NCBI GenBank assembly: GCA_021800035.1
Contig: JAJYZJ010000003.1
Coordinates: forward strand, 1 to 64,000
Length of the DNA stretch: 64,000 nt
Origin: an archaeon
Lineage (GTDB): Archaea; Thermoproteota; Thermoprotei_A; Marsarchaeales; Marsarchaeaceae
Direction: 5' to 3'
The notes under the pieces were generated by a model, which ran no database searches, was not told the origin of the DNA, and was given only the letters and a program-made list of their open reading frames with translations. Both the position numbers and the translations under genes were made by a program. Each line of letters starts with the position of its first letter. The stretch's first letter is position 1. Shown in pieces: positions 1-18,668 of the stretch.

Positions 1-41
1 GCAAAGCCGCAGTCGCCCGACGACAGCAAAAATTAAAGGCA

Positions 42-206
42 CTAGGTTGTGACTTGACCGTCTGGAACGGAGCACTCGTACTCCGCTCTCTCAAGTGTGC
101 AGATTGCGCAGGGCTCGTCCGAGTCGGGCGGCAGCGTTCCCACCATCTTCAGCCCGAGTGGCGTGCTCTCGCGGTAGCACTTTTCACAGACTCTGATTCT
201 CGCCAT
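42..206 (-). CDS. Small double-CxxC zinc-finger-like protein (start taken at internal ATG 206)
   Basis: MARIRVCEKCYRES...PCAICTLERAEYECSV; TATA-like 'tatttaag' upstream on the minus strand (~245-252). Confidence 0.5.
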   Translation of the reverse strand: MARIRVCEKCYRESTPLGLKMVGTLPPDSDEPCAICTLERAEYECSVPDGQVTT

Positions 207-271
207 CCGTCGCCAGTTCGCCCTGGGCTGATTGCTTTCCCGGCTTAAATACCAAGGCAACAAAACCTGAC

Positions 272-3200
272 ATGGACATCTCGGGTGATATGCGAAGCGG
301 GTCTGCCTTACCCACCGAAATCGCTACCCCGCTCTTTTGTGCCGACAAGCTCTCGGAAAAGGGGCTTAGGCTCTACAGCATGGTCGCAAAGAGTGCCTCG
401 AAGGACTTCAGGATAGGCGGCCAGGGCAACCGCTGGGGGGTTGGCTATATAAAGGGAGAAGACCGCACGCTCCGCTGCTATCTTGCGACCGCTGCTCACG
501 TAGAGGCACTGCGGCTGAGAGCGGGCGCTGCGGAAACCGAACCCAGGACCGGGAGGGGCGTGTGTTTTGCGATTGACTTCGGCTGCTACTCTACATTCCG
601 CTTTGCGAAAGAAGACCAGTTCCACTACTCGCGCCTGAGCTGGAGCGAGCCCCAGAGCCTCTTGGCCCAGATAGCGCCGGGCCAGCTCCTCTGGGTATGG
701 GTTCAGCACGACTGCTCGCTTTCAGAGGCGCACGAGCGAAGGCTGAACTCGCTCGCCTCTCAGATGCAGAAGTATCCGAGCCTCAGGGCGACGAACGAGA
801 AAAAGATTCAGCGCATCCAGGAGAAGGCGAAGAGCACGCTTTACGTGCTTGACATCTGCCTTTTTGAGCCGTCGAAGGACAAGAAGATCGCGCACGAGCG
901 GCTGGCGCGTTCGAGTCAGGCGCTCGTGGGTCACGCCCAGGGCGCGCAGCTCGAGTACACGATTCATGACCTTCCGGGCGCGTTCGATGAGCCTGGCAAT
1001 CCTGACCAGTCTCCCCTCTTGGGGGAGGAGAGCGGGAGTGCCAAAGAAAAGAGAGAGCGAGAGAACGAGAAGAAGGAAGAGGAGCACCTGAAAGCTATGG
1101 AGAAGAAGACCGCAGAGATTCGCAGGATTCTCTCCGCACCTCCGAGGCACAGCTTCAGCGGCTTCGGAGGGTGGATGGAAGACGTGCTGAAGGGCCACAG
1201 GGAGCTCCATATGACAGAGCAGGACCTGCTCGAGTTTCTCGTGCTCCCCGACCCGGCAGTCCACCGCGCGAAGTACTCGAGGGGCTCCTCCTTGCCAGCG
1301 CCCGCCGAGATGGCAGGGGAGGTGCCCCTGGGAGAGGCCCTGGAGGGGGGCGAGAGGCCGGTGGGCGTGACTCTCGCAGAGATGCGCTCTCACACGTACC
1401 TACTGGGAGCCACAGGCTGCGGAAAGACAACCTCGCTAAAAAAACTCCTCGAAGGGCTGAGAAGAGCCGACCCGGGCGCGTGCGTCTTCGTCTTCGACAT
1501 GAAGGACGAGTTCGCAGAAGACGTGGCCGCGAGATTCTCCGCCGACCCCTCCCTCCTCTACTTCCACCCCGTGAGATCCCCTCTTGCGATAAACCCGCTC
1601 GAGCTTCCGAAGGTCGACCCCGGAGAAGGAGGGAGGCCCCGCGCGGAGTTCCAGGCGGTGGAATTCTTTCTCGACATGATGGAGAAGGTGTTCGGGCTCA
1701 TGCAGGAAGCGCGCTACGCAAGGCACGTGGCACAGGTGGCGCTGAGGTGGCTCTACCGCTCGACCGACTCCCCCACGTTCACCCAGCTTTACGCAATGAT
1801 AGAGGGGATCAGGATGAAGAAGGTCTGGGCGCCCGAGGAAGACCCGGAGATGGTGAACCAGTTCATGTTCCTGAGGGGGCTCGAGGACACCTCGTATCTC
1901 TCGGTGCTCTCCAGGCTGGACCTAATCTCGAACAACGCTTTCGCCGCGCGGCTTCTGAACTCAACTTCGGTAGCGGACGAGGAGCTGGTCAAGGCAGGGA
2001 GGCTCGCGGTGTTCAACATGAACGAGTCCGGCTGCGGAGGCAGCGACATGGCATACCTCTTGGCCGCGACCTACATCCACAAGATCTGGCATATTGTGCT
2101 CAGGCTGAGGGAAAAGGGGCTGCGGGAGCCCAGGGTCTACATATTCATAGACGAGTTCGGGAAGATAGCGCGTTTCCGCCTGATGGACGCCCTGCTCTCA
2201 GAAGCGCGCTCGCGCTCGGTCCACCTCGTCATGGCCCACCAGCACCTTGGGCAGGTCTGGGACTCGGTGAGGAAGAGCGTGTTCACGAACACCGCGGTAA
2301 AGATTATCATGCGCGTCACTGACAGCGAAGACGCCGCAATTGTGAGAGGGCTCGACCCGGACTATTCGGATGAAATTTACAGGAGCCTGCCCACGCTCCG
2401 GACCGGCCAGGCGATAATGTTCCTTTCGCCCCAGACCGGAGAAGACAAGCTGGCGCCGGTCCTCGTCGAAGTGGGCTACCCCAGGGAATACCTGGAGGAA
2501 GGCCTGACTGACGAAAGAAAGAAAGAGGCCGCGCTCGCCTCTGTGTGCCAGAGGATGAGGGTCTACGCCCCGCCAGAAGCTTCGAATCAGGCGACAGAGC
2601 TCCTTCTCAACCCGGTGAAATACTTCGGGGACAGGCTCCCAGGGAGGCAGGAGGCCAAAGTCGAGAGGCGGCTCTACGAGAAAGTGAAGACATCGGGCCT
2701 GTCCCGGGACGAAAATAGCGAGGCAGGCTCGCCTTGGGAGTGGACCAGCCTCTCGGCGCTAGCTGCAGAAACCGGAATTCCCGGGGAAGAGCTCAGAGCG
2801 ATTGTGAACGGGCTCATCGGCGAAGGCAAGCTCGAGCTCGACCCGGAGTCTGTGAAACCGGGAACGGAGCGCAGGGTGCGCTACCGGAAGGGGCTTTTCG
2901 GGGCGCTTGAAACCGAGAGCGTAAGAAAGGCCACTTGCCCCTCGCGGGAAGGGCTGGGAATAGCTCTCGCCGCGTGGCTCGAGCTCACGGACAAAGGCTG
3001 CGGCGTTGTGGCCGCGGACCAGTCGTTACCGGGCTCGAAGCCTGACCTCGTTGCGGTGGCTTATGACGCGAAAGGGAGACCGGACCTGAAAAGAGCGATA
3101 GCGGTGGAAGTCGAGAGCCCTGAGGAAGTCAGGAGGCACCCCGAACAGGTGATAGAGAACATGGTCAAGCCCTCCACCTATTATTTTCACGAGGTTCAGG

Positions 3201-3667
3201 TGTGGACGCTCGAAGACGACATCGAGCTCGTGACGAAGATGCGGGACAGCCTATCCGACCCCACGAAGAGGGCAAAGGTAACGCTACACCTCACCGGACG
3301 TGGAGAACTGGACTACTACCTCGCGCTGTTCCAGGGCAGGGCGCCTCCGGAGCGCAAGATACCTCTGGAGGAGAAGACCGGGTCGGCCACTGAGACGCAG
3401 CTCCCGTGCGAGCCAAAAGTTGTTGGAGGCTCAAGAGTAGTGCTCACTGCCAGGATGGGGGAGGAGTTGCTCAGGTTGCGCCCCCAGCCCGGAGACGCTC
3501 AGGTCCTGCTGGGTTACTGGGACAGACCTGACATCGAAAAGCAGGTCGAGCGGATGGAAGGTCACAAGGCCGTTGTCACGGTTTACGAACTCAGGGGAGG
3601 CGGAAAGAGGAGGGTGGGCAGGTTCGAAGTGGAAATAGCTGACGAACTTCAAGCTCCGGAGCGGTAG
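272..3667 (+). CDS. VirD4/TraG-HerA-like DNA-translocating ATPase with C-terminal winged-helix-like and PD-(D/E)XK-like regions
   Basis: Walker A GATGCGKTTSL; Walker B VYIFIDEFGK; HQHLGQVWDSVRKSVFTNTAVKIIMRV; C-terminal SALAAETGIPGEELRAIVNGLIGEGKLELD and KPDLVAVAYDAKGRPDLKRAIAVEVESPEE. Confidence 0.8.
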   Translation: MDISGDMRSGSALPTEIATPLFCADKLSEKGLRLYSMVAKSASKDFRIGGQGNRWGVGYIKGEDRTLRCYLATAAHVEALRLRAGAAETEPRTGRGVCFAIDFGCYSTFRFAKEDQFHYSRLSWSEPQSLLAQIAPGQLLWVWVQHDCSLSEAHERRLNSLASQMQKYPSLRATNEKKIQRIQEKAKSTLYVLDICLFEPSKDKKIAHERLARSSQALVGHAQGAQLEYTIHDLPGAFDEPGNPDQSPLLGEESGSAKEKRERENEKKEEEHLKAMEKKTAEIRRILSAPPRHSFSGFGGWMEDVLKGHRELHMTEQDLLEFLVLPDPAVHRAKYSRGSSLPAPAEMAGEVPLGEALEGGERPVGVTLAEMRSHTYLLGATGCGKTTSLKKLLEGLRRADPGACVFVFDMKDEFAEDVAARFSADPSLLYFHPVRSPLAINPLELPKVDPGEGGRPRAEFQAVEFFLDMMEKVFGLMQEARYARHVAQVALRWLYRSTDSPTFTQLYAMIEGIRMKKVWAPEEDPEMVNQFMFLRGLEDTSYLSVLSRLDLISNNAFAARLLNSTSVADEELVKAGRLAVFNMNESGCGGSDMAYLLAATYIHKIWHIVLRLREKGLREPRVYIFIDEFGKIARFRLMDALLSEARSRSVHLVMAHQHLGQVWDSVRKSVFTNTAVKIIMRVTDSEDAAIVRGLDPDYSDEIYRSLPTLRTGQAIMFLSPQTGEDKLAPVLVEVGYPREYLEEGLTDERKKEAALASVCQRMRVYAPPEASNQATELLLNPVKYFGDRLPGRQEAKVERRLYEKVKTSGLSRDENSEAGSPWEWTSLSALAAETGIPGEELRAIVNGLIGEGKLELDPESVKPGTERRVRYRKGLFGALETESVRKATCPSREGLGIALAAWLELTDKGCGVVAADQSLPGSKPDLVAVAYDAKGRPDLKRAIAVEVESPEEVRRHPEQVIENMVKPSTYYFHEVQVWTLEDDIELVTKMRDSLSDPTKRAKVTLHLTGRGELDYYLALFQGRAPPERKIPLEEKTGSATETQLPCEPKVVGGSRVVLTARMGEELLRLRPQPGDAQVLLGYWDRPDIEKQVERMEGHKAVVTVYELRGGGKRRVGRFEVEIADELQAPER

Positions 3668-4041
3668 GCCGAAAGGGCTTCGGGGTTTTTCAGGAGCCAC
3701 ACCACGGACGTGGTGTTCGGCGCCCGCACGCCTTCGAGCGCTCCAGCTTTTTCGAGCTGGCGCAGCTTCTTCCAGAGCAGGAACATACCTCCGCGCTTTG
3801 TGAACGACGGGCCGAACTTTTCAGTGCGAACGAGTGAATCGTAGAGGAACCGCGTCGAAGCGAATCCCGTGTTGTTTTTTATGAGTTCGATGGTAGCTAC
3901 GGCGAATTCGTAGAGGTTGAGCGCCCCTGGGGTTTCGTATATCGGCAGTACCAGCCTCCTGCGCCTGACCGGGCTCCTTCTCCGCGACCTGCCCTTGACA
4001 CTTTTTCCGACTGGAGACTCTGAGTACCTTCCCATTGTCAC
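3649..4041 (-). CDS. Small basic winged-helix-like protein
   Basis: 130 aa ORF with basic N-terminus (KGRSRRRSPVRRRR) and helical C-terminus; TATA-like 'tatttaagccc' upstream at ~4062-4072. Confidence 0.55.
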   Translation of the reverse strand: MTMGRYSESPVGKSVKGRSRRRSPVRRRRLVLPIYETPGALNLYEFAVATIELIKNNTGFASTRFLYDSLVRTEKFGPSFTKRGGMFLLWKKLRQLEKAGALEGVRAPNTTSVVWLLKNPEALSAYRSGA

Positions 4042-4101
4042 TTCACTGTGAGCTTCTCGCCTGGGCTTAAATACGAAAGACCGGAGCTCCCTTCACTGAC
4101 C

Positions 4102-4225
4102 GCGGGCCGGGCCCGCAAGCGATGAATCGAGGACACTGCTCCCGCTCGACCGGAATATTGCCGGGGGGTAACCAAAGGTAACCAGAGATAGACTTAAGGT
4201 AACGGGAGATTGCCCGGGCGTAACC
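4102..4225. promoter_or_regulatory. Palindrome plus iteron-like GGTAACC repeats
   Basis: GCGGGCC-G-GGCCCGC at 4102-4116; GGTAACC at 4167-4173 and 4177-4183, GGTAACG at 4198-4204, CGTAACC at 4219-4225. Confidence 0.45.
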
Positions 4226-4435
4226 GAACACTCGGCCGCGCACGCTCAGGCAGTAAGAGCGGGCGGTTGGTCTTCTGGTTCGCGTTGTGGTTGTCTTCTG
4301 GAGTAGGGCTTTACAGTTTTTTGATTTCAGTTTTTGATTCAGGTCCGGCTTCGCCGAGCGGTCGTGGCGGTTTAGACCGTATTCAGGAGTTGGCCGGTTC
4401 TTCCTTTACAGAACCCTTCTCCGTTGCCAGCGAAC

Positions 4436-5521
4436 CTACTCCTTGAGTGCTTCTTTATAGGCCTCTGTCGCTCTTCCAATCGCGACTGCGGACCGTTCAT
4501 TCTGCAGGTCCCCCATCATTTTAGTCATTCCCTGGCAATTATTTTCCAGCGCGTCCAGAAAGTCCTCGAAGTGTTTTTCCGCCAAGTCCGTATTCAGCGC
4601 GACCCACAACACTGGAAGAATCCAGTCCACCGGGTTAACGGGAAGCGCTTCGGGGTCGAGCTTCAGGCACTTCCTGAAACTGGCGGCGATTTCGGTCCAC
4701 TTTCGGTACCAACTTGGCGAGTGATTGGCGCTGAAATAGTCGAACAGCTCGGCTATGTTAGAATATCCACCGCTGGAAGTCCCTGGACTCGCGCCGGGGC
4801 TTGTGCCCAGACATGTGTGCTTTCTTCCCCCGTACCCGTGTAGCCGGGTAAACGAAACACGGTTGTCTTCTGCGTAGTTTCCAGGCAAACTGCCCGCGAT
4901 GCCGGATGGTGTCGCGGAAGGATTAGGCAGCTGGTAAACTCCAGTTGGTCGCGGGGGGGCGGGCGCTCCGCAGTGGGTGAACACCCAGACGATGTAGTCT
5001 GCCAGCGGCTCCTCGATTTCCGAAGGGAGCCCTACGTACGGCTTATCTTGGCTGACTTCGGCATAGCATAAATATTTTCCTCTTATCGCTCGTATTGTTG
5101 AGGCCCGCGCAAGTTGCTCTTGTACGGTGCGTCCGCCACTGGCCGCGGGAGGGCTATTGAAGCTGAATGTATACGTCAGGGCGTGGGCGTGCTCGTGCAG
5201 CCGCACCAAATGCATCAGCATCAAGAAAGTGAGCGATTCGCTGGCGGCCGGCCCTCCTTTCTTAGTACACTCTCCGAAGAGTGAGCGCGAACACTCCTCT
5301 ATACATTTCGCGTACAGGATTACGAATCTTGTGTCGGGATAGCATTCCCCCAGCAAGTCGAATCCCCCCACCTCATTCTCCCTGGGGCGATTGCAATCGT
5401 CTATGTCAACCAGTTCAATGCTGGCTCCAGTCGGCAAAACGTTCCACAGCTCAACCGGAAGAAACTTGCTCAAGGCGTCCTCGGCATGTGTCTTTCCTGG
5501 TCCGCTGCCGGTCGCGGTCAT
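4436..5521 (-). CDS. Putative zinc metallopeptidase-like protein (HExxH)
   Basis: HLVRLHEHAHALTYTF (HEHAH = HExxH) with downstream EEPLADYIVW candidate third ligand; internal ATG at 5521 has a TATA 'aaatttatac' ~30 nt upstream, consistent with a leaderless transcript. Confidence 0.5.
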   Translation of the reverse strand: MTATGSGPGKTHAEDALSKFLPVELWNVLPTGASIELVDIDDCNRPRENEVGGFDLLGECYPDTRFVILYAKCIEECSRSLFGECTKKGGPAASESLTFLMLMHLVRLHEHAHALTYTFSFNSPPAASGGRTVQEQLARASTIRAIRGKYLCYAEVSQDKPYVGLPSEIEEPLADYIVWVFTHCGAPAPPRPTGVYQLPNPSATPSGIAGSLPGNYAEDNRVSFTRLHGYGGRKHTCLGTSPGASPGTSSGGYSNIAELFDYFSANHSPSWYRKWTEIAASFRKCLKLDPEALPVNPVDWILPVLWVALNTDLAEKHFEDFLDALENNCQGMTKMMGDLQNERSAVAIGRATEAYKEALKE

Positions 5522-5820
5522 GTCGGGGAGGTAGCAGGCTCGCAGAGCGTATAAATTTTCTGGGACAGCGGCTCGCTCCCGAAGGCTGGGTTGCAGTGGC
5601 GGGAGCGTGCAGTGCCACGCTTCTGAGCGGGTTGTGCCTGACACGCTGTCGCAGGTACGCGCACACCCCGATTCCGAATTTTGCAGGGAAGTATGCTTCG
5701 CTCGCTGGCTCGCTACGCTTCTCCCCGCACCCCTCTTGCTCCTCTCCCCCCTCTCGGGTTCAGGAGCCACGCACCTCGCGCCCATCCGCGCCGTCGCCGC
5801 GGATGGAAGACGCGGAGTTC

Positions 5821-6007
5821 GACATTTTTGGTCGGAACTCGCTTCGCTCGCGCGCGGGGACGCAGCGCTCGCGCGCGCCGCCCGTGTGGGTCGCTCGCGC
5901 TCCCTTACGGTCGAAGCGCGCTCGCCGGTGCTGCGCGTGGCGGGTCCCTCCCCGCTTCGCGCCCCTTCGCGCTCGCTGCGCTCGCAGGGTTCGAGACCAA
6001 AAATGTC
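5821..6007. repeat. 13-bp perfect inverted repeat flanking a GC-rich segment
   Basis: gacatttttggtc 5821-5833 and gaccaaaaatgtc 5995-6007; interior full of cgctcgc/cgcgcg motifs. Confidence 0.6.
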
Positions 6008-6476
6008 TCACCATACGTCTTCCAGCACGGCTCCGGCGGGGCCACGGGCGCGCAGCCCTGAGGCTCCTCCCCAGGCTTCCCCGGAGTCTGTGCATAACGC
6101 GGCCGCAGCGGAGAGTGAAACCGCGGCCTACCGGCAGGAGGGTTCGGGAGCACAGCAAGCGGGAACCGCGACCGCGGCGGGCCCTGAGAAGCCAGCGGTC
6201 ATCCGCAGGGGCGCCTCCGGCTACAGGTGGTACCTGCTCCTCGGGAGGCTCGTAAAGGACTCGCTGAGCGGGAAAGCGGTTCTCGTCTCGGTCTCGCTCC
6301 CGGGATACGAAGGCAGGGAGGTCTGGGTGCCGGAGAAGCTCACGCTCGTGGCCTCGGGCGACGAAGTGCTCGTCTCAAAGTGGACGCTCGACCGGATAGT
6401 AGCCCCAAAGCTCGGCTCTCCTTCAATAGCACCGAAAAGCGCGGGCTACTCGAAGGAAGAAGGGGAGGTGGAGTAG
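6003..6476 (+). CDS. Hypothetical protein, first gene of the PCNA-like cassette
   Basis: ATG 6003; disordered A/P/E-rich N-terminus then ordered YRWYLLLGRLVKDSLSGKAVLVSVSLPGYEGREVWVPEKLTLVASGDEVLVSKWTLDRIV. Confidence 0.55.
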   Translation: MSHHTSSSTAPAGPRARSPEAPPQASPESVHNAAAAESETAAYRQEGSGAQQAGTATAAGPEKPAVIRRGASGYRWYLLLGRLVKDSLSGKAVLVSVSLPGYEGREVWVPEKLTLVASGDEVLVSKWTLDRIVAPKLGSPSIAPKSAGYSKEEGEVE

Positions 6477-6479
6477 CGC

Positions 6480-6845
6480 TTGGAGACAGGGAATACGGAC
6501 TATCTCCTGCGGGTGTTCGTCCCCGAACCGCTGCTTTGCGAAGGGAAGAATCCGCCGCTCTGCGACGCATGCGCAACCCCCTTCGGGAAGGTAGAGGAAC
6601 GGGAGGGCTTCGATGTCGCGGCGCTCGTGCTCGTCGATTCAGAGTCGGGGGAGGGCTCCATCTGGGGGCTCGTCTGCCCGAAGTGCGTGAGCGCCTACCA
6701 CGGCGCGCTCGCGGTAAAGACCGAGCGGGAGGAGCCCATGGCAGCGCGGGCGCTCAGGGGTGTGCTCGGCCGACCCCTTACGTTGGGATTCTTCGAAACG
6801 GACGAAGAGTTCTACGCCGCTCTTTCGGGAGGGGTCATGAAGTGA
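6480..6845 (+). CDS. Hypothetical double-CxxC protein
   Basis: TTG start 4 nt after the upstream stop; CDACATPF and CPKCVSAYHG pairs; overlaps the next gene by 4 bp. Confidence 0.6.
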   Translation: METGNTDYLLRVFVPEPLLCEGKNPPLCDACATPFGKVEEREGFDVAALVLVDSESGEGSIWGLVCPKCVSAYHGALAVKTEREEPMAARALRGVLGRPLTLGFFETDEEFYAALSGGVMK

Positions 6846-8119
6846 GCGGCTCCGGAGCGCGTGACGGGAGGGAGCGGTCGAGCGGGGGTGCGAGCGGGCA
6901 GGAGTACCTGAAATGCTCTTCCTGCGGCTCGGACAAATGGTCGCGCACATGCGTAGACGCAGTCCGGATAGCAGCGACCGCGGAGGGTTATGCGGACGAG
7001 ATCGACGACTCCGGAGACGCCGAGTATATTTACGCATGCGCAGAATGCGGGAAGCGCTTCGAAGAAGCGGTAGGCAAGCCCCCGGGCACAGAAGCGCCGA
7101 CTGCCGACACCGAGACGGGGGCCATACGGACCGCGCAGCCAGAACGCGGAGACAGCGGCTCTGAGCGGGAGCGTGCCCGGGACGGCGAGGTGATTCCGGA
7201 GGACGGTGAATCGCCCCCGGGCGGCGGAAAGGAGAAGACTCCGGATAAGGCCCCGACGGAGAAGGAAAGCGCTACTGACGCTCCCAATCAGTCGACCGGT
7301 CCAGCAGCATTTTCATTCACCTTCCCCTCGGCTTCGCTCTTCGAGAGGCTGCTCGCCCATGTCTCGAAGGCATTACGCGCGGACGAGCTCACCTGGGAAA
7401 TCTCGGAGAAGGGTTTCAGGGTAAGGGAGCTCGATTCGCGCCACGTGATGTTCGCGGAGCTCATGATTCCGCGAGAGATATTCACGAGCTTCTCCTGCAC
7501 AGGGGCAGAGTCAGGATCGGTGAGGCTCGCTGTGAACACCGGGAGCATAAGGGCGCTCAGGGCCGCGGGCGAGAACCAGCTTGCTATCTCGTTTGCGGAA
7601 CCTCCTGCTGGTGCAGGAGGGAAACTCTCTCTGCAGTGGAGAGGCGGAGGTTTCGAAGCTGAAACCAGCGAGCCTTCCGCTGAGCCACCAGCAATAAAAC
7701 TCACTCAGGCATTCAGCGCGAAGCTCTATGCAGAGAAACTCGCCACAGCGCTGAGGAGCACTTTCGGAAGCTCGGCCGACTCAGTAAGGGTTACTGCAAC
7801 GCCAAGGGAGGCGAAGGGCATCTCTCTTGTCTTGGCCCATGGTGAGAAGTCGGCTGAGCTACGCGCGCTCACCCACCGCTGGGAGAGCGAGCCCAGGGAA
7901 ATGCGTGCGAGCTATTCCGCGCAGGAGCTGTGCAGAATCGCTTCGGACGGAACAGGAGCGCTCGTAGCAGAGCTGGGCTTTTCGAGCGCCCAGCCGCTCA
8001 GACTTGAGTTCCTCGTGCCCGTCCAGGGAAAAGCGGCGAGGCTCTCCTACTTCCTTGCCCCCTCGGATGCGGATACTGAGCCGGGGCAAAACTCGGAGGG
8101 TAAGGGAACAGGGGTCTAG
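6842..8119 (+). CDS. Zinc-ribbon + PCNA (sliding clamp)-like fusion protein
   Basis: GTG 6842 overlapping the upstream stop. N-terminal CSSCGSDKW...YACAECGKRF. C-terminal FERLLAHVSKALRADELTWEISEKGFRVRELDSRHVMFAELMIPREIF...VRLAVNTGSIRALRAAGENQLAISF...LRLEFLVPVQGKAARLSYFLAPSD matches PCNA/Mcl fold order and signature ends. Confidence 0.8.
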   Translation: MSGSGARDGRERSSGGASGQEYLKCSSCGSDKWSRTCVDAVRIAATAEGYADEIDDSGDAEYIYACAECGKRFEEAVGKPPGTEAPTADTETGAIRTAQPERGDSGSERERARDGEVIPEDGESPPGGGKEKTPDKAPTEKESATDAPNQSTGPAAFSFTFPSASLFERLLAHVSKALRADELTWEISEKGFRVRELDSRHVMFAELMIPREIFTSFSCTGAESGSVRLAVNTGSIRALRAAGENQLAISFAEPPAGAGGKLSLQWRGGGFEAETSEPSAEPPAIKLTQAFSAKLYAEKLATALRSTFGSSADSVRVTATPREAKGISLVLAHGEKSAELRALTHRWESEPREMRASYSAQELCRIASDGTGALVAELGFSSAQPLRLEFLVPVQGKAARLSYFLAPSDADTEPGQNSEGKGTGV

Positions 8120-8844
8120 TTGGGAGCCGGCCTCCAGCTACTCCCTCGGAAGAAGTCATTCGTTCACCAGCCCAAAAGTGCTGCTTCTCAAGGCAACCTA
8201 AGAGGAGCGCGAGCCACGCGCACTGGACGTAACCGCGCCCTCAAAAGGCTAAAGATTCGCGTTCCCGCCATCCAAAGCGGGTGGAGAAGCAGCTGAGTTT
8301 ACCAAGGCGTTCAGGTACGCGTAGTGGTGAATGTGCGGTAGGTCGCAAACCCAATCCTCCTAGGACAAAAAGAGGCCTCTCCCCTTCAAGAAATCTACTG
8401 CTACGGAGCGAAGGTGTCGAAGCGGCCTCAAACGCTCCCGGCCCTAGCGTGGCGCCAACACTTTGCGCCTGCTTACGAGCAAACAGATTCACCCAGGTGT
8501 ACGACAAAGTTATGGGCAACGGTTCCTGCAGAATGCCTCACGGGTCAGGCCAAGCTCCGGTCGCAACACCGCATTCTTTCTTGTAGGGTTCTTGAAAATT
8601 TTGCGTGCACCTCGACTGTAAGACAACGCTGGGCATAATGGACAAGCAAAACCAGAGAATCAAGCCGCGCCTCCGTCAACGAGATCTCAGAGTTGCACCG
8701 GCTCAGTCACGTTCACTACCTATACTGAGAGTACCGCCCAACGCCGGCAACCGAAGCGAAGTGGAGACACAATAAGACCCGTGGCCCAGCCTCCGCCATG
8801 TTCGGTTAACTTATTGAAAACCCAAGAAGTAATAAGCCAAAGAG

Positions 8845-11259
8845 TTGCTGGATGCAACTATGACGCAGAATCCTGTTAATCACGAATATGGACGATTGTT
8901 CAAAATGGCATCAGGTGCAGAACCTTTTCAGTACCAGATCAGATTGGCGCACGAGAAATTCGACCTTGTGAATGTGCCTACTGGTTGCGGAAAGACTGCT
9001 GGAGTGTTTCTTGCTTGGCTGTGGCAGCGCAGGTTTAACCCGGACGATTCTGTGAGGAGTTCAACTCCTAGAAGGCTCGTATACTGTCTTCCCCTGCGTT
9101 CGCTTGTAGAACAGACTAGAGACAACATATCCAGCTGGCTTGAGTCTGTTGAACTGCTTGCGCGAACGCTGAAAGAACCAGTCGAGTCGAATCAGTCTGG
9201 GCTCTTGGGTAAATACAAAATACCCGTAATAACAGTTATGGGAGGCGAGAACATCCTCCCCTGGGACCTCTATCCAGAGCTTGACATGGTCATAATAGGC
9301 ACCCAAGACATGCTCCTTTCAAGAGCGCTTAACAGAGGGTACGCTATGAGCAGATTCAGATGGCCAGTTGAGTTCGGCTTACTCAACAACGACTGCAGGT
9401 GGATATTCGACGAAATCCAGCTCATGGGCAACGCGCTGGCGACGTCCTCTCAACTCATGGCGTTCAGAGAAGAAATGGGTACAGTCATTAAGGCAGAAAG
9501 TGTCTGGATGAGCGCAACAGCGCATGGGGAGTGGCTCAAAACCCCTGACTTCCACCGAGAGGTCAAAACGCTACAGCTGGACGAAAACACTGTCGCTGCC
9601 GAGCCAGCCCTGTACCAAAGGGTTCATGCATCCAAGAAGATTGAATACTCCAAAACCACGGCTGAAAACGTCGGCAAACTCGCGGAGGAAGTTTTGCGTA
9701 AACACGTCGAAGGGACGAAGACGTTAGTCGTCCTAAACACCGTCAAGAAGAGCGTTGATTTGTACAGGGCATTAAAAGGCGCCTCTGACAGCTGCAGAAA
9801 GCCAATCGTGTTACTGCATTCCCATTTCAAACCGAGAGATAGAAAGAGCCATATGGACAAACTGCTCAAAACCGAGGGCGATCTGATCGCTGTAAGCACC
9901 CAGGTGGTTGAAGCCGGAGTCGACGTATCAGCAAGAACGCTTTTTACCGAAGTCGCACCTATTTCGTCCCTGATACAGAGATTCGGCAGATGCAACAGGT
10001 ATGGAGAACACGCTCTTGGATCAATTTTTTTGGTAAAGGTCAAAAGAGGATCGGAGGCCCCTTATGCCCCCGAACAAATGAAAGACTCCGAAAAACAGTT
10101 AGCGGACCTGCATGGCGACGGTTCGGCCCCTGCGCTTTCGAAGCTCGAATACAAATTCGAATGCACCAACGTGATAAGACGCAAAGACATAGCCGAGCTT
10201 TTCGACACGACAGCCGACCTCTTTGGAAGGAACACGGATGTCGGACGGTTTATCAGAGAGGATTCGGACCGCCTTGCGGAAGTATTCTGGAGAAAAATAG
10301 ATGAGTCCGTTAAAGCTGAAGGCATCCCTCCCCAGCAGCCGAGCCAAGGAGAACTGTGTCCTGCGCCGGTCGGAGACATCAGAAAGCTGGTTGCGAGCAA
10401 GCACAGAGTGTACCAGTGGGATATGTTGTCAGGGCGCTGGGTAAACGCGCGCAGGGAAGACATCCGTCCGGGAGGCATGTACATGCTTGCATGCAGTGAT
10501 GGCGGATACCTCGAGGAGACCGGTTGGAGTCCCGAATCAAATCTCCCGGTAGACGTAGAAGAAACTAGGCCTTCCGAGGAAGACTCGTTCGGGTTTGATG
10601 GGTGGCCTGGCGGCCCGTGGCAGACGATTGCCGAACACTCCCAGCGAACCACCTCAGAAGTAGGTTCAATCATCGCGGCAGTCGGAGCACACGAGTTCAC
10701 TTCGGCGGTTGAACTGGCGGCATTGTGGCATGATGTCGGCAAAGCACATCCAGCGTTCCAAGCCAAGATCAAAAAGATGGAAGGAATGGAAAAGCAACTC
10801 TTCGCCAAAGCCCCAAAGGAACACTGGTACAAAATCCAGGAAAATTACCCCGGAAAGAGGGTGCATTTTAGGCACGAGTTAGCCTCCGCTCTAGCAATGC
10901 TACAAAACGGCGCTCTCATAGGTTTGACCGGCGATTCGCTGAACCTGGCAGCCTACCTGGCGGCGGCCCACCATGGGAAAGTTCGAACAGCGATAAGGTC
11001 CACCCCCGACGAAAAAGTACTCAACATAATGGATTATGTGGCGTGTGGAGTCCACCAGGGCGACGTGTTGCCCGAAACATCGCTTGGAAACTTAACCGTA
11101 CCCTGCACAATCCTCGACCTTTCAATAATGGGCCTCGGCGAAAACAGTTGGCGGAGCAGGACAGAAAAGATGCTTTCATACCTCGGGCCGTTCAGACTTG
11201 CTTTCCTAGAGGCATTGGTCAGGGCCGCCGACCGAAGAGCGAGCGGTGAATCGCAATGA
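8845..11259 (+). CDS. cas3: CRISPR-associated helicase-nuclease Cas3 (type I-G/I-U arrangement, C-terminal HD)
   Basis: Walker A VNVPTGCGKTAGVFLAWLW; DEIQ box WIFDEIQLMG; STQVVEAGVDVSA; QRFGRCNR; C-terminal HD LAALWHDVGKAHPAFQ. Alternative ATG at 8860. Confidence 0.93.
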   Translation: MLDATMTQNPVNHEYGRLFKMASGAEPFQYQIRLAHEKFDLVNVPTGCGKTAGVFLAWLWQRRFNPDDSVRSSTPRRLVYCLPLRSLVEQTRDNISSWLESVELLARTLKEPVESNQSGLLGKYKIPVITVMGGENILPWDLYPELDMVIIGTQDMLLSRALNRGYAMSRFRWPVEFGLLNNDCRWIFDEIQLMGNALATSSQLMAFREEMGTVIKAESVWMSATAHGEWLKTPDFHREVKTLQLDENTVAAEPALYQRVHASKKIEYSKTTAENVGKLAEEVLRKHVEGTKTLVVLNTVKKSVDLYRALKGASDSCRKPIVLLHSHFKPRDRKSHMDKLLKTEGDLIAVSTQVVEAGVDVSARTLFTEVAPISSLIQRFGRCNRYGEHALGSIFLVKVKRGSEAPYAPEQMKDSEKQLADLHGDGSAPALSKLEYKFECTNVIRRKDIAELFDTTADLFGRNTDVGRFIREDSDRLAEVFWRKIDESVKAEGIPPQQPSQGELCPAPVGDIRKLVASKHRVYQWDMLSGRWVNARREDIRPGGMYMLACSDGGYLEETGWSPESNLPVDVEETRPSEEDSFGFDGWPGGPWQTIAEHSQRTTSEVGSIIAAVGAHEFTSAVELAALWHDVGKAHPAFQAKIKKMEGMEKQLFAKAPKEHWYKIQENYPGKRVHFRHELASALAMLQNGALIGLTGDSLNLAAYLAAAHHGKVRTAIRSTPDEKVLNIMDYVACGVHQGDVLPETSLGNLTVPCTILDLSIMGLGENSWRSRTEKMLSYLGPFRLAFLEALVRAADRRASGESQ

Positions 11260-13376
11260 ATATTCGCCTAGAAGGATGTAGGACGAAGCCTCTTGGATCA
11301 TACCTCAAGGCAATGGGGATATTCAGGCTTCTTGCGGAAAAAGTTAGTGTGCTGGCGTGGTGGGAAGGGGACGTCTTCAATTTGCAGTCGCCTCTTACTC
11401 TGGACGAGTTAAAGATTTTTTTCCTGAGCGAATATCAGCCAAGTTCTATCCTCTCCCCGTGGAACTCCGGAAGCATATTCAAAAATGTAAGACCCAAGCA
11501 GCTGGCCAGTCGAGAAGCCAGTAAACCTAAGCCAGCCGCTGAACTGAATTGGCTACTGAACAATGCTGACCCTCGACTAGATACCCTGAGAAGCGACGCC
11601 TGCAAAATTATTGAAATTATTAAAAATGAGAAAGGGAAGGAAGCCGTTGTAAGGAAATGCAGGAACATGCTCTCCGACTCCGCTGTGGAATGGATGGACG
11701 TGGTATGGGCGGTGGACGCCAAGGACCAAGCCGGCCACTTGGCGCTCCCCATAGCTGGTTCCGGTGGAAACGACGGTAATCTGGAGTTATCCAGCCAATT
11801 CGTCAAGGCATTGATAACAATCTTTGATCATATAAAGGAGAGTTCGGTCAGAGAGTTGTTTGACAGTTCATTAACGGGCGTTGCTCTTCGCGCAGACGAA
11901 TTCGTTGGCATGCTTAAAGAAGCCAAGATAGGGTTCTATGACCCAGTCGGGGCCGGGGGGATAAACCAGCTGAGCAGCCCGTGGCAGGATGCCAAAGATG
12001 TAACTCCTGTCAATCCGTGGGATATTATACTTATGTTTGAAGGTCTCCTCATGTTTTCCGGGAGCATATCGAGTAGAAACGGGGTAAAACGTGCGTCTTC
12101 ACCCTTTACCGTAGGTTTGGACCTGACCGGGTTTCACCAGAAAGCCAGTGACAAGAAAGCGAAAGTAGTATACGAAGTCTGGGCGCCCGTCTGGGGGAAT
12201 CCAGCCACCTACGCGGAAATAAGGAAGATAATAAGGGAAGGCAGAAGTGACTTCGAGAGACACACTGCTTCAAGCACTAACGAGTTCTTTCACGCCGCGT
12301 CTACGCTTGGCGTAGATTCCGGAATAAGTCACTTCCAACGCCACGTCATACTAAAAAAGAGGGGCGAGGCACACATCGCGGCTCCACTGGGTAAGGCATT
12401 TGTCAGAAAGATGCCCCAGGCGGAATCGATTAGAGAGATAATCCCTTTTCTAAACGAATTAAGCGAGAACCTTGATGCTTTGCCCCATGGTCTCAGCGCG
12501 GCAGTAACCAGACTCAGCGGGGCCGTCCAAAACTACTACTCAAACCCCAAAGTCGGGGTAACTCGAATCTTGGAAAGTCTGGGCATTGTTGTTAAACACC
12601 TCATGAATGGACCAGCAGTACTGCACGGTACGGATAGACGGGTGCCAAGAAGGCTTCCCCGACTTGACGCTGGGAAATGGGTCGAACTAGTTAAGAGTGA
12701 AGGCCGTGTCGAACCCAGGTTGGCGGCTGCTCTTGCTTCTGTGTCGCATAAAAAGCCAATAATAGAAGACCTGCTCAACCTTGAAAACGGCAGCCTAAAA
12801 AAAGGGCCTGGGAAACGAAGCTTTGCAGGTGCAGACTTACCGTCGAAAATAGTGACCCTGTTCCTGCCAAAGATTATAGAAACGATCCGAGAAGGAAACG
12901 AAGAAAACCATGATGAACATTTACGTGGTCGATTCCAGGTAGATGTATGCGACGTGGTTCCCTTCCTTATGGGTGAAACTGATGATGGCCTTTTGGAGCG
13001 ACTCTTCTTGGGGCTGACGTGTCTTGACTGGAGAAACCTAGCGCGGAACGTCTTGAGCGAACCCTTGCAAAGTAGACCGGTGCCTCTGACCTTTGTTCTT
13101 CTCAAATCAGTATTTCAAGACTATAAAACGCCAGACAGCGATTTTGCAGTTCACCCCAGTGTCGATCTACCGTACCTGATTTACTCGGGGAAAGTAAGAG
13201 AAGCAATGAACCACATAGTCATACGGCTCAAGACCCTTGGCTTTGATGTGCCCAAATTCGACCCGGACCAGCTTGACGGTAAGAGACTAGCCGCCTCGAT
13301 GTTCATACCCGTGACACCTCAAAGCTACGGGAAGCAAGCAAGAAAGTTCATCCAGTATAAGGCCCCAGACAATTAG
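11256..13376 (+). CDS. csx17: Csx17 (Cas8u2-like) large subunit, type I-G/I-U
   Basis: N-terminus IRLEGCRTKPLGSYLKAMGIFRLLAEK typical of Csx17; 4-bp ATGA overlap with cas3; position in operon. Confidence 0.85.
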   Translation: MNIRLEGCRTKPLGSYLKAMGIFRLLAEKVSVLAWWEGDVFNLQSPLTLDELKIFFLSEYQPSSILSPWNSGSIFKNVRPKQLASREASKPKPAAELNWLLNNADPRLDTLRSDACKIIEIIKNEKGKEAVVRKCRNMLSDSAVEWMDVVWAVDAKDQAGHLALPIAGSGGNDGNLELSSQFVKALITIFDHIKESSVRELFDSSLTGVALRADEFVGMLKEAKIGFYDPVGAGGINQLSSPWQDAKDVTPVNPWDIILMFEGLLMFSGSISSRNGVKRASSPFTVGLDLTGFHQKASDKKAKVVYEVWAPVWGNPATYAEIRKIIREGRSDFERHTASSTNEFFHAASTLGVDSGISHFQRHVILKKRGEAHIAAPLGKAFVRKMPQAESIREIIPFLNELSENLDALPHGLSAAVTRLSGAVQNYYSNPKVGVTRILESLGIVVKHLMNGPAVLHGTDRRVPRRLPRLDAGKWVELVKSEGRVEPRLAAALASVSHKKPIIEDLLNLENGSLKKGPGKRSFAGADLPSKIVTLFLPKIIETIREGNEENHDEHLRGRFQVDVCDVVPFLMGETDDGLLERLFLGLTCLDWRNLARNVLSEPLQSRPVPLTFVLLKSVFQDYKTPDSDFAVHPSVDLPYLIYSGKVREAMNHIVIRLKTLGFDVPKFDPDQLDGKRLAASMFIPVTPQSYGKQARKFIQYKAPDN

Positions 13377-13431
13377 GCTTCCAGTGCATATATATAGCGA
13401 ATAGAAAGAGTATGGACTGAGGTCAAACTGG

Positions 13432-14637
13432 TTGAATGACGGGTCGCAGCTTGAAATACCTGTAGGAAACAGACTGATGTTTTCGGTTCGACTAGCTCCG
13501 AGGCAGGGAGACAGGTTCCAGCCAACTGGGTTTCCGAATATAGGCCCTGGAATCTACCGTAGACCGGGCGGGATGCAGATGCTACTAGTTGAGTCATCAC
13601 AGTCGATGGCTAACAGGCTCGAAGAAACCATAGTCGCTGACGGGTACAGCATAATCAAAGAACTTGATGGACTGCCCTATGTGACCTCTACGATCAAGAT
13701 TAAGCATGAGGACGATATAGACCCTGAGCAGAAAGGAAAAAGTGAGGATGTTGTCACTACGAGCAGCCTTGTCGAGCCGCATAGATTAAACTCCGACTTC
13801 ATCCTGAACGCCAAACGTGATAGCAACAACGAAGAAACATTCGCAGACGAACTGATTAAGGAATTTCAATTCGAACGCTACAGACCGGTTAACTGGAGAA
13901 TAGTCGTAAAAACTCTCTTCAAATATGACCCGAACACACTTCTGCACGGCGCATTCTTTTCACAGCTCAAGGATGGACGAATCAAGATTCCGAGGGCCGT
14001 CTCAGCGTTTATCGAAGCGGAGAACGTCGAGCCAGCCGAGTCCGGCGGCGTCAAGAAAAACATTTTCGACCTTTCATCCAACTTGGAATTTGTAGGTAAT
14101 ATAAAAAGGAAGGGAGGCACACAGATGATACCATTTAACAGAACGGAGTTCACCGCTGAGAAGATAACCGCCTATTTCAACATGGACCTGTCGCTCCTGA
14201 GAGAGTATGATGCAGCAGTCACGAAAGAGAAAAATGATTGTTCCGGGAAGGTGGCGAATTTCCTGTATTTGCTCTCGGTTTACAAGATACGCCGGTTCCT
14301 TAGCCGTGGCCTAAGGCTAAGGTCGTCATGCGACTTGGAGGTAGTCGACGAAGAGAAAAAGGCCGCTCTGGGAAGCCAAAGCAAAACCTATCCGCCCGCT
14401 CTTCAGCTAGACGTCAAAACCATCGAAGCCGAGCTCCAGCGATTGATCAGGGAACTTCGAATATTCTTTGCAGAACCCCCGGTTACGAAGTTAGAAACAT
14501 GCATGCGCCCCAAGAGAAACAAGAAAGAAAAGAATGAGGAAGCTGGTGAAGCAAACGCCGGTACCGATTCCGCCCGCACCGATGAGCCCGAGGGTTCTGA
14601 TTCCGACGGACCGAGCGACGAAGACTCAGAAGAGTAA
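13432..14637 (+). CDS. csb1: Csb1 (Cas7 group, GSU0053-like)
   Basis: MFSVRLAPRQGDRFQPTGFPNIGPGIYRRPGG...LVESSQSMANRLEE; TTG start; TATA-like 'atatatata' at ~13387-13395. Confidence 0.87.
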   Translation: MNDGSQLEIPVGNRLMFSVRLAPRQGDRFQPTGFPNIGPGIYRRPGGMQMLLVESSQSMANRLEETIVADGYSIIKELDGLPYVTSTIKIKHEDDIDPEQKGKSEDVVTTSSLVEPHRLNSDFILNAKRDSNNEETFADELIKEFQFERYRPVNWRIVVKTLFKYDPNTLLHGAFFSQLKDGRIKIPRAVSAFIEAENVEPAESGGVKKNIFDLSSNLEFVGNIKRKGGTQMIPFNRTEFTAEKITAYFNMDLSLLREYDAAVTKEKNDCSGKVANFLYLLSVYKIRRFLSRGLRLRSSCDLEVVDEEKKAALGSQSKTYPPALQLDVKTIEAELQRLIRELRIFFAEPPVTKLETCMRPKRNKKEKNEEAGEANAGTDSARTDEPEGSDSDGPSDEDSEE

Positions 14638-14642
14638 ATGCG

Positions 14643-16076
14643 ATGAGCCAAAATTGCAAACCTGTTGCAATTCAAGTGCAGTTCCTCACGGGCAGATATC
14701 ATGCAACCCCTTGGACAGAGCATGTTAACAACGGGTCACCCGAATGGCCTCCGACTCCCTACAGGCTTCTCCGCGCAATCTACGACACATGGAGAAGAAA
14801 GAGGAATGATTGGCCCGAGGAGAAAGTTACTCCCATTCTTCAGGCGCTTTCCTCAACAGAACCCGAATATGAACTGCCACCATACGTCCTCAACCAAGTC
14901 CAAATGTACCAAAAAATCAACGACGCACAGGACCTGAGCTACAGTAAGGCAAGCCTAATAGTGGACGCCTTCGTATCCGTGAACCCCAAATCATGCGCAA
15001 CCATAGTGTGGAGGCACACGGACCCTGTACTTACGCCCCAGCAACGCCGAGACTTGGCTGAGCTGGCGTCACTTGTAAACTACCTCGGACGCTCCGAAAG
15101 CTGGGTGAGTCTCAGGTTAACCGACGCCTTCAATCCCAACTGTTACCCTCGGGCAGAGGGAGGTGCAGAACACGATTCAGTAGCAACCGTGGCATGCGTA
15201 GTCAAGGCGAGTGACAACCTAAGTACGTGGTTGAAGACGCTCACTTCAAGCACATATGACAACAAGAAGCGGGGAAATGTCGGCTCACCCCTGATACACT
15301 ACGTGGATTACGTTATTCAGCCAGAAGCCCAGCCTGAGCCTGCCGCCAGCAACGAGCGGACTGGGATACACCTCGTTACATATACCCTTTCATCCAAAAT
15401 GAAGATACCCGTCACGCACACTGTCAGCTTATCTTACATGATTCACAGGTACCTAATGGGGTGTTACCGCCGGGTAACCGGCGCAGAGAGGTTATCGCCC
15501 ACGATAAGCGGCAGAGCCGAGGACGGCTCGCCACTCAAGGGGCACCGCCACCTCTACATATTACCCTACGACTCGCTCGGCGACGGCTGGATAGACCACG
15601 TCGCCCTCAAATCCAGCACCGAATTCACCTACAAAGAGCTTGATGCAATCTACGCGCTGAGAAGGTTGCACTATTCCGGAACCCAAGAACCCGATGTCAT
15701 GCTCCTCCCATCTATACGCAGCCCCGAAGAATCGTCTACGTTATTTAGAAGCATAACACCATTCATACCAACCAGATACTTCAAGAAAAAATACGGCGAG
15801 TATCAAAACTGGATTCTGCAGGAACTGAAAAGAGAACTGCGTAACCACGGCCATCCCGAACCCCAAGCAATCACCTACACACCATTCTATACAACACGCG
15901 GCAACAGGCGCTACCCTTGGCACGCCTTCAAAAGAACAAGAAAACCCGGCGAACCCGAAAAGTCCGGCTACGGATTCATAATCGCATTCAAACAGCCAAT
16001 CACTGCTCCCATCGCAGCAGGGTACGGAGCACATTTCGGATTGGGCCAATTTACGCTATATAAAACACAAGCATAG
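14643..16076 (+). CDS. csb2: Csb2 (Cas5-Cas6 fusion, GSU0054-like)
   Basis: VAIQVQFLTGRYHATPWTEHVNNGSPEWPPTPYRLLRAIYDTWRRK; C-terminal half with FGLGQFTLY. Confidence 0.87.
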   Translation: MSQNCKPVAIQVQFLTGRYHATPWTEHVNNGSPEWPPTPYRLLRAIYDTWRRKRNDWPEEKVTPILQALSSTEPEYELPPYVLNQVQMYQKINDAQDLSYSKASLIVDAFVSVNPKSCATIVWRHTDPVLTPQQRRDLAELASLVNYLGRSESWVSLRLTDAFNPNCYPRAEGGAEHDSVATVACVVKASDNLSTWLKTLTSSTYDNKKRGNVGSPLIHYVDYVIQPEAQPEPAASNERTGIHLVTYTLSSKMKIPVTHTVSLSYMIHRYLMGCYRRVTGAERLSPTISGRAEDGSPLKGHRHLYILPYDSLGDGWIDHVALKSSTEFTYKELDAIYALRRLHYSGTQEPDVMLLPSIRSPEESSTLFRSITPFIPTRYFKKKYGEYQNWILQELKRELRNHGHPEPQAITYTPFYTTRGNRRYPWHAFKRTRKPGEPEKSGYGFIIAFKQPITAPIAAGYGAHFGLGQFTLYKTQA

Positions 16077-16301: not shown

Positions 16302-17433
16302 CTATCCATGACTGAAAAGTCATGGCTCCGTTGAAGGTATTTTTTCATTCAGGAATTCAGCCAGCCTGCGGGTCACTATCCATGACTGAAAAGTCATGGC
16401 TCCGTTGAAGGCTGTAGACGAAGTGTGGGAGCTGATTGAGCTGTGGCACTATCCATGACTGAAAAGTCATGGCTCCGTTGAAGGACAAATCACTGCAAAC
16501 ACACGGCTGAAGGTCTGGAAGGCTATCCATGACTGAAAAGTCATGGCTCCGTTGAAGGGATTATAAACTACTGAAAATAACTTATCGTGGGCTCGCTATC
16601 CATGACTGAAAAGTCATGGCTCCGTTGAAGGGCATGCACTCGTCATAAGTTGCAAAAGTGCCTGCAAGACTATCCATGACTGAAAAGTCATGGCTCCGTT
16701 GAAGGATGAAGTCCAGAAAAGCCACGATGAAAGCGCCGAAGGCTATCCATGACTGAAAAGTCATGGCTCCGTTGAAGGTGGTATGTTTTTCTAGATGATG
16801 ACAGCTATCCCTTAGACTATCCATGACTGAAAAGTCATGGCTCCGTTGAAGGTGTAGTTGCGAGCTTCGAGCCAGCGCGGGAGACCGGCTATCCATGACT
16901 GAAAAGTCATGGCTCCGTTGAAGGTGTTCTGACGCCGCTGGCCATAGTCCTGATTGTGCATCTATCCATGACTGAAAAGTCATGGCTCCGTTGAAGGAGG
17001 CGGCCCGAAGACAGGCCCTGGGGCTGCTTTCGTCTATCCATGACTGAAAAGTCATGGCTCCGTTGAAGGTACTCTTTTGAGTCTTTCTATACGTGCTTCT
17101 TGACTCTATCCATGACTGAAAAGTCATGGCTCCGTTGAAGGCGGCACTTGCATAAGTGCGCTCCAGCATGTCCTTCCTTCTATCCATGACTGAAAAGTCA
17201 TGGCTCCGTTGAAGGCGGCACTTGCATAAGTGCGCTCCAGCATGTCCTTCCTTCTATCCATGACTGAAAAGTCATGGCTCCGTTGAAGGTTCTCGTCTGC
17301 ACCCGACGGAAGCTTTACGTCTATTCTATCCATGCCTGAAAAGTCATGGCTCCGTTGAAGGAGAAAAGGGTATTGGTCAATTTCATCGATGACTACCCTA
17401 TCCATGACTGAAAAGTCATGGCTCCGTTGAAGG
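16302..17433 (+). CRISPR. CRISPR array, 16 repeats of 36 bp, 15 spacers of 36-38 bp
   Basis: Repeat CTATCCATGACTGAAAAGTCATGGCTCCGTTGAAGG starting at 16302, 16376, 16449, 16523, 16596, 16670, 16743, 16817, 16889, 16962, 17034, 17106, 17180, 17254, 17326 (variant CATGCCTG), 17398; 3' GTTGAAGG supports + strand transcription. Confidence 0.99.
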
Positions 17434-17709
17434 TTCTGGGAGCTTTTCCAATATAGCGTCGAACCTTACTACTATGAAAATGTGTTTAGATAAATGTCCT
17501 GTAGGAACCCTAGGAAAAAGAATAATCCAAACTCACGGTCCGCGAAGCGTTATAGGAAATTATTTCCAGCCTCATCTCGTTGTTCTGAGCCTTTGCCTTA
17601 CCCACTTATCTTATCACCCATAGTCCTCCTGATCACAGAAATGATCTTCACTGCCTTGGACCTCTGATGATATTTCTTCCTGGCACTGCTGCTACAGTCA
17701 GGAAGAGCG

Positions 17710-17942
17710 CGAGTACACGATTCACGACCTTCCGGGCGCGTTCGATGAGCCTGGCAATCCTGACCAGTCTCCCCTCTTGGGGGAGGAGAGCGGGAGTGCC
17801 AAAGAAAAGAGAGAGCAAGAGAACGAGAAGAAGGAAGAGGAGCACCTGAAAGCTATGGAGAAGAAGACCGCAGAGATTCGCAGGATTCTCTCCGCACCTC
17901 CGAGGCACAGCTTCAGCGGCTTCGGAGGGTGGATGGAAGACG
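17710..17942 (+). repeat. ~233-bp near-identical partial copy of the ATPase gene (source 952-1184)
   Basis: cgagtacacgattca[c]gacctt...gggtggatggaagacg; two mismatches seen (966 t>c at 17724; one g>a in gagagc[g/a]aga). Confidence 0.95.
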
Positions 17943-18668
17943 CGCTCGATTCTGGGCATCATAAAGGGGAGACCTTCGCCGAGGTGCCCGACGATTAGCT
18001 GTAGCTTCGGGTGGGCATCAAACGCTCCGCCCAGTATCACCCGCATGACATGCGGCGCAGTTTCCGTATGCCAACCCCACCCTGCAATCGAAAACAGCGA
18101 TGTTACCTCCCTCGAGTAGTTTCCGACGTAGCTGGATTTGATCACAGGCTCAGGTAGAGGTGTCGGATGGAGGTAAATCGGAACGCCCAATTCCTCGGCG
18201 CGCTCAAGTATAGGCCAGAAGAACTTGTCGTCCAGGTACCGGCCACGGCTGTGCCCGTGAATCATTGCGCCCCTAAGACCGAGCTCTTTCACTGCATGTT
18301 CCAACTCGTCGGCGGCCTTGTCCGGGGGTCAATACCCGAAGTGAGGCGAAACCCGCAAGAAAGGTGGGGTATTGTTTCACCGCTTCAGCTAACACTTGGT
18401 TCGAATCTCGAGCAAGATTCGCCGCCTCAATATCATCTTGGGCGCCTTCAACTCCCCGAGTCAGGGAAAGGACCTGCATGTCGATTCCAGCCGCGCCCAT
18501 TTCGGAAACCCTCCCTTGTCCCAGGTCAAGTAGGCGGTCGATGACCTGTGCCGCCGTCGTTTTCATTGAAGAACGTGCAAATGCCTCGAGTATCTGCTCC
18601 ATTCCCCGCCCGGGACCTTGCATGAAAGCCTGTGTTACGAAATGCTCTTCCAGAGCAATGGTTCGCAT
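17943..18668 (-). pseudogene. Truncated and frameshifted metal-dependent amidohydrolase (amidohydro_2-like)
   Basis: N-terminal MRTIALEEHFVTQAF...FLAGFASL and, in another frame, ELEHAVKELGLRGAMIHGHSRGRYLDDKFFWPILERAEELGVPIYLHPTPLPEP...HPKLQLIVGHLGEGLPFMMPRIE, then reads into the inserted ATPase fragment. Confidence 0.85.

Follow-up and report, generated by a model that had tools for sequence, protein, structure and literature searches.

What does an archaeon that already encodes a chromosomal sliding clamp gain from a second, highly divergent clamp gene that lies beside a conjugation-type ATPase gene and begins with a cysteine-rich head? This question is raised by the locus at the start of our window, a stretch of 64,000 nucleotides corresponding to bases 1-64000 of a contig of 69630 (contig C72 of genome G000). 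The genome is a MAG (85% complete) of a hot-spring archaeon from the Marsarchaeota group, now Tardisphaerales and classified as o__Marsarchaeales in GTDB (PMC12542729).

A clamp gene in a GC-rich island

The G+C content is 58-64% in bases 1-8200 of the window against ~51% beyond, and most genes in this island have a GC3 of ~0.65-0.79, compared with ~0.55 in the cas genes. The features of the island are the following (head, linker and clamp are parts of the fusion gene):

272-3667, plus strand: pNOB8-type conjugation ATPase (TraG/VirD4-like) of 1131 aa, identified by plasmid matches
3649-4041, minus strand: small basic protein of 130 aa, possibly a winged-helix regulator as judged from its sequence, without family match
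4436-5785, minus strand: ORF of 449 aa with a zincin-like HEHAH motif, no hits to Pfam, PHROGs or NCBIfam
5607-6476, plus strand: opening gene of the operon, a 289-aa ORF whose true start probably lies more downstream, without family match
6480-6845, plus strand: CxxC...CxxC protein of 121 aa, same operon as the fusion gene
6828-6835 (approximate position), plus strand: strong Shine-Dalgarno-like GGGAGGGG preceding GTG 6842
6842-8119, plus strand: fusion gene (putative zinc ribbon, linker, PCNA), 425 aa, GTG start, single open frame
6899-7078, plus strand: Cys-rich N-terminal head, residues 20-79 (CSSC ... C ... CAEC), putative zinc ribbon from its motif and a weak Pfam similarity
7079-7303, plus strand: low-complexity charged linker, residues 80-154, no secondary structure predicted
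7304-8065, plus strand: complete two-lobed PCNA-type clamp, residues 155-408, ending in YFLAPS, from profile and PDB matches

The fusion gene closes an operon of three genes in this island, which lies at the contig end. The 1131-aa ATPase matches 23 plasmid records, mostly conjugative plasmids of Sulfolobus (pNOB8 and relatives), with E-values down to 2e-95 and homology to their ATPases over 60-80% of the length. A second (TraE/VirB4-like) ATPase, an integrase, an attachment site or a replication gene were not seen in the 8.2 kb of the island, which is cut at base 1, since the contig begins there. Remnants of island genes are found on contigs C16 and C37 of the same genome, at 17706-17946 of the window and on contig C5 of a congener (G001). 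The 121-aa gene has a copy in the congener with 75% identity (dN/dS 0.29) and a fragment on C37. Contamination or misassembly, which we considered as a source of the island, is unlikely given these gene remnants at three other places in the genome and in the congener. The original prediction that the clamp is encoded by an element is thus favoured by the GC-rich island, the pNOB8-type ATPase and the decayed relatives, while no integrase or attachment site was seen in the truncated sequence; the gene is probably part of a conjugative-plasmid-like island.

Several observations concern the surroundings of the island and its remnants. A type I-G CRISPR-Cas system adjoins it (8845-16076; Cas3g, Csx17/Cas8g, Csb1/Cas7g and Csb2), with an array of 16 repeats at 16302-17433 in which two adjacent spacers, nos. 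11 and 12 when counting from 0, have the same sequence; none of the spacers in this array matches the island. Directly behind the array lies a duplicated 241-nt piece of the ATPase gene (window 948-1188 = 17706-17946, 98.3%). Another decayed ATPase fragment, on contig C16 (locus L076; 3-692, 1496-2849 and 4108-4830), adjoins an AbiEi/AbiEii-like pair and an HNH-type protein, as read from sequence only. A GC-rich 7.3-kb contig of another family member (L079, G002:C86) carries several conjugation-type ATPase genes and is perhaps a related element.

One reading frame for head and clamp

The ORF, its coordinates and the sequence quoted in the original prediction proved exact on recheck. The GTG at 6842 overlaps the TGA of the upstream gene (GTGA). 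The fusion frame is mechanically open from 6227, its GC3 signature starts only at ~6830, and the part before this point overlies the conserved 121-aa gene in another frame. Within the frame, GTG 7190 is the sole start that precedes the clamp, and it lacks a Shine-Dalgarno sequence comparable to that of GTG 6842. Based on the GC3 onset and on this difference in ribosome-binding sites, head and clamp are most simply regarded as one translated protein.

The clamp half is recognised end to end. With a profile built from ordinary Thermoproteota PCNAs, residues 159-408 (model positions 4-244) score 80 bits (E 8e-24), the best of 1000 shuffles reaching 1.5 bits. Pfam PCNA_N matches residues 160-245 (E 2e-5), the NCBIfam archaeal clamp model residues 158-408 (E 5e-12), and the top PDB match, a eukaryotic PCNA, residues 155-414 (E 1.5e-5). 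The complete two-lobed clamp that had been predicted is thus borne out by homology over both lobes, far beyond chance, and its in-frame fusion to a putative zinc ribbon is supported by the single frame together with these profile matches. AlphaFold models of the fusion protein and of one relative have low confidence (pLDDT 39 and 37). In Foldseek their top matches are PCNAs (E 1.8e-8 and 4e-5, rmsd 10-13 A) and the order of their secondary-structure elements is that of a clamp; with such pLDDT and rmsd values, the model geometry is unusable for fold detail or ring formation. The fusion clamp shares with archaeal and eukaryotic PCNAs the two ordered lobes, the LDSxHV motif, residues of the pocket that binds PIP boxes and the terminal YxLAP, and differs from them by the N-terminal head and linker and by a C-terminal hairpin insertion. 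It also falls outside all canonical PCNA clades of the class, and its interface columns look eroded.

A putative zinc-ribbon head with decayed relatives

The head contains the cysteines C25xxC28, C37 and C66xxC69. The CxxC...CxxC pair that had led to its description as a zinc ribbon is therefore present, but the Pfam similarity (Zn_ribbon_8, E 0.002, 18.6 bits) lies below the Pfam cut-off of 34.4. The low-complexity linker, previously put at ~100 residues, is there and measures ~75. A paralogue of the head is encoded in the same genome (C37:4115-4333, 62% identical) and a decayed relative in the congener (G001:C5:16636-16911, 46%). Both are frameshifted, both lack C28, and no recognisable clamp follows them; clamp remnants that seemed suggestive by eye at these two places were dropped, because 45-715 of 1000 shuffles were as good. 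Since both decayed relatives consist of a head without a clamp, the fusion may be recent. The comparison of the fusion head with the C37 paralogue gave a dN/dS of 0.12 (dS 1.9, near saturation), which shows that the zinc-ribbon module has been under purifying selection in the past. Among 400 genomes of the phylum, this module was found only in the source genome, in a listing that did not include the congener with its decayed copy.

A lineage-specific group of accessory clamps

The source genome has a single canonical PCNA elsewhere (G000:C126), in agreement with the proposal that the fusion clamp is accessory to a chromosomal one. Each of the ten order genomes that we searched has one canonical PCNA, and in our tree the canonical clamps of the family form one clade (100/100) with the fusion clamp outside. 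An extra divergent clamp was detected in four of the six family genomes: the fusion clamp itself and those of G003 (contig C22), G005 (C26) and G002 (C23). The three clamps without zinc head, each in a different chromosomal neighbourhood, are located as follows:

Locus L037, 9928-10893: divergent clamp without zinc head
Locus L039, 9415-10209: divergent clamp without zinc head
Locus L083, 9350-10069: divergent clamp without zinc head

The nearest relative is that of Candidatus Marsarchaeota archaeon FK_Sedi_B_Bin.208 (G003), which bears an N-terminal extension of ~65 residues without cysteines. The four accessory clamps split from 39 other clamps with support values of 87/91, and the fusion clamp (P0001) groups with G003:C22 at 100/96, in a tree that is weakened by long branches. 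They also have in common the C-terminal hairpin insertion before YxLAP. A profile built from the four clamps and run over 231 genomes of the class gave nothing between the 340 bits of the members, which are its training set, and the 103 bits of ordinary PCNAs; no clamp of this group was found in the other 225 class genomes searched. The four genes sit in unrelated neighbourhoods, evolve far faster than canonical PCNA, and only the fusion copy has a zinc head. As the three zinc-less relatives stand alone in chromosomal surroundings, our comparisons indicate that the fusion clamp belongs to a lineage-specific, fast-evolving accessory family and is not simply an element gene.

A retained PIP pocket and an apparently altered ring interface

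As PIP pocket we took nine positions known from established PCNA-peptide structures. Alignment columns were mapped onto human PCNA (sequence checked against 1axc), and the interdomain-loop positions 126, 128 and 133 were excluded from the test because their columns vary; these loop residues have diverged in the fusion clamp. In this protein H44, V45, P234, L251, A252 and P253 are kept and M40, L47 and Y250 conservatively changed. In all four accessory clamps and all five alignments, the pocket positions are kept better than equally conserved columns, with nominal p-values, among several tests, of 0.03-0.05 for the fusion clamp and 0.0002-0.03 for the other three. A PIP box search among the island proteins yielded one weak non-canonical motif only, in the N-terminal portion, itself doubtful, of the 5607-6476 ORF.

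The ring-interface columns are in a worse state than other conserved columns robustly in G005 and G002 and in most alignments in G003. In the fusion clamp the usual interface looks eroded to an extent that depends on the alignment (nominal p from 0.0006 to 0.23). A uniform interface loss across the accessory clamps, which we had considered, was weakened after re-alignment. Two positions of this interface, corresponding to human D150 and I154, carry other residues or are missing in each of the four proteins, whichever alignment is used. By sequence mapping, the numbers of K/R in the four DNA-facing helices (2, 3, 2 and 1) are the same in the fusion clamp and in the host clamp.

Possible roles of the fusion clamp

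We favour, with a probability of about 0.45, the interpretation that the protein is a lineage-specific accessory clamp whose zinc ribbon binds DNA or protein and which would bring PIP-box enzymes of the host to DNA that the head selects. The clamp half would offer these enzymes the same docking pocket as the host PCNA, and the place or the partner would be selected by the zinc ribbon, which is attached through a flexible linker. Since the gene is the last of an operon on what is probably a conjugative-plasmid-like island, a likely use would be the recruitment of host replication and repair enzymes to island DNA during copying or transfer. The retained pocket is consistent with the original proposal that a host polymerase, ligase or nuclease could be redirected in this way. 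As the usual subunit contacts look altered, the fusion clamp would probably not join the homotrimer of the host clamp and might act, more conjecturally, as a ring of its own or as a monomeric hub. A broader and rather doubtful extension of this idea is that the family has a second class of clamps, mobile or fast-evolving, that lost the ring contacts and kept the client pocket, working as orthogonal rings or monomeric hubs, one of which was armed with a zinc head by the island in a single genome.

The accessory protein could also be a diverged subunit of a heterotrimer formed with the canonical PCNA, as are the three PCNAs of Sulfolobales, and take part in the normal replication or repair of the host. 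Two to three PCNA genes are indeed present in most other class genomes, and a Sulfolobaceae-like clamp from a multi-PCNA genome, included as control (G044_b), shows interface drift in the same test. We nevertheless consider this unlikely: the canonical PCNA occurs throughout the order and the accessory clamp only in part of one family, in four unrelated contexts and with a far faster evolution, whereas an essential ring subunit should not be missing from G001, G004 and the second family (MAGs only 62-84% complete). The combination of a pocket retained in all four clamps with D150/I154 positions changed or absent, and a wider interface loss in most alignments, would equally be expected of a decoy, a monomeric clamp-like protein that forms no ring and restrains or inhibits host PIP-box enzymes. 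This seems improbable to us, because the interface loss of the fusion clamp varies with the alignment, the DNA-facing helices still carry basic residues, and the interface drift fits just as well a self-assembling ring with its own contacts.

It is harder still to see the protein as an ordinary replication clamp, of the kind that plasmids and viruses of haloarchaea encode, whose N-terminal extension would have no functional importance. Clamps of mobile elements are known, including in pT26-2 plasmids of Methanococcales (PMC6972569), and the extension of the nearest relative has no cysteines; the dN/dS of the zinc module, the solitary chromosomal position of the nearest clamp relatives, away from replication genes, and the lack of a recognised replicase on the island make this explanation quite unlikely. 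Finally, the frameshifted loci of C37 and G001:C5, which lack a clamp, and the truncated, fragmented state of the island would agree with an unused deletion product in a dying element. The fusion copy, however, is an intact frame of 425 codons whose GC3 is that of coding DNA; its ribosome-binding site is good and its pocket undamaged, and we give such an origin hardly any credence.

Relation to known clamps

Clamps encoded by plasmids and viruses, second clamps and a fusion of a clamp with a methyltransferase are already known. In Thermococcus kodakarensis, PCNA2 (TK0582) is likewise a second clamp beside an essential one; it forms a homotrimer, stimulates PolB and is dispensable for growth, and one of the two clamps of this species was proposed to be laterally acquired (PMC3984812). 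Unlike the fusion clamp, TK0582 is not described there with a zinc ribbon (PMC3984812). The PCNA-like protein MMP1126 of Methanococcus maripaludis, with low similarity to true PCNA, also carries an added domain (PMC3984812), which is a SAM-dependent methyltransferase and not a zinc-ribbon head. The PCNAs of haloarchaeal plasmids, haloviruses, Aoguangviridae and pT26-2 plasmids reside on mobile elements as well (PMC10768690; PMC6972569). We found PCNAs as clamp-length matches in 24 plasmid and six halovirus records, and the mobile-element PCNAs, compared as such matches only, have no close sequence relation to the fusion clamp.

Phage and plasmid collections contained nothing close to the fusion protein, and the plasmid records, including those of the Sulfolobus conjugative plasmids, no homologue of the clamp fusion. 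Scans of IMG/VR with the fusion protein and four alignments gave no confirmed relative. A zinc-ribbon-PCNA fusion was found neither in the literature searched nor in the genomes of the class, in which no other listed clamp has an open frame longer than ~330 aa. The fusion and the accessory clamp group therefore appear to be new.

Recognisable relaxases are missing from the conjugative elements of archaea (PMC9905601). If our interpretation is correct, a clamp with a retained client pocket, changed ring contacts and an added head for targeting would lend itself naturally to directing replication and repair enzymes of the host towards chosen DNA, and the fusion clamp would provide a testable case for the control of host DNA enzymes by conjugative elements in archaea.
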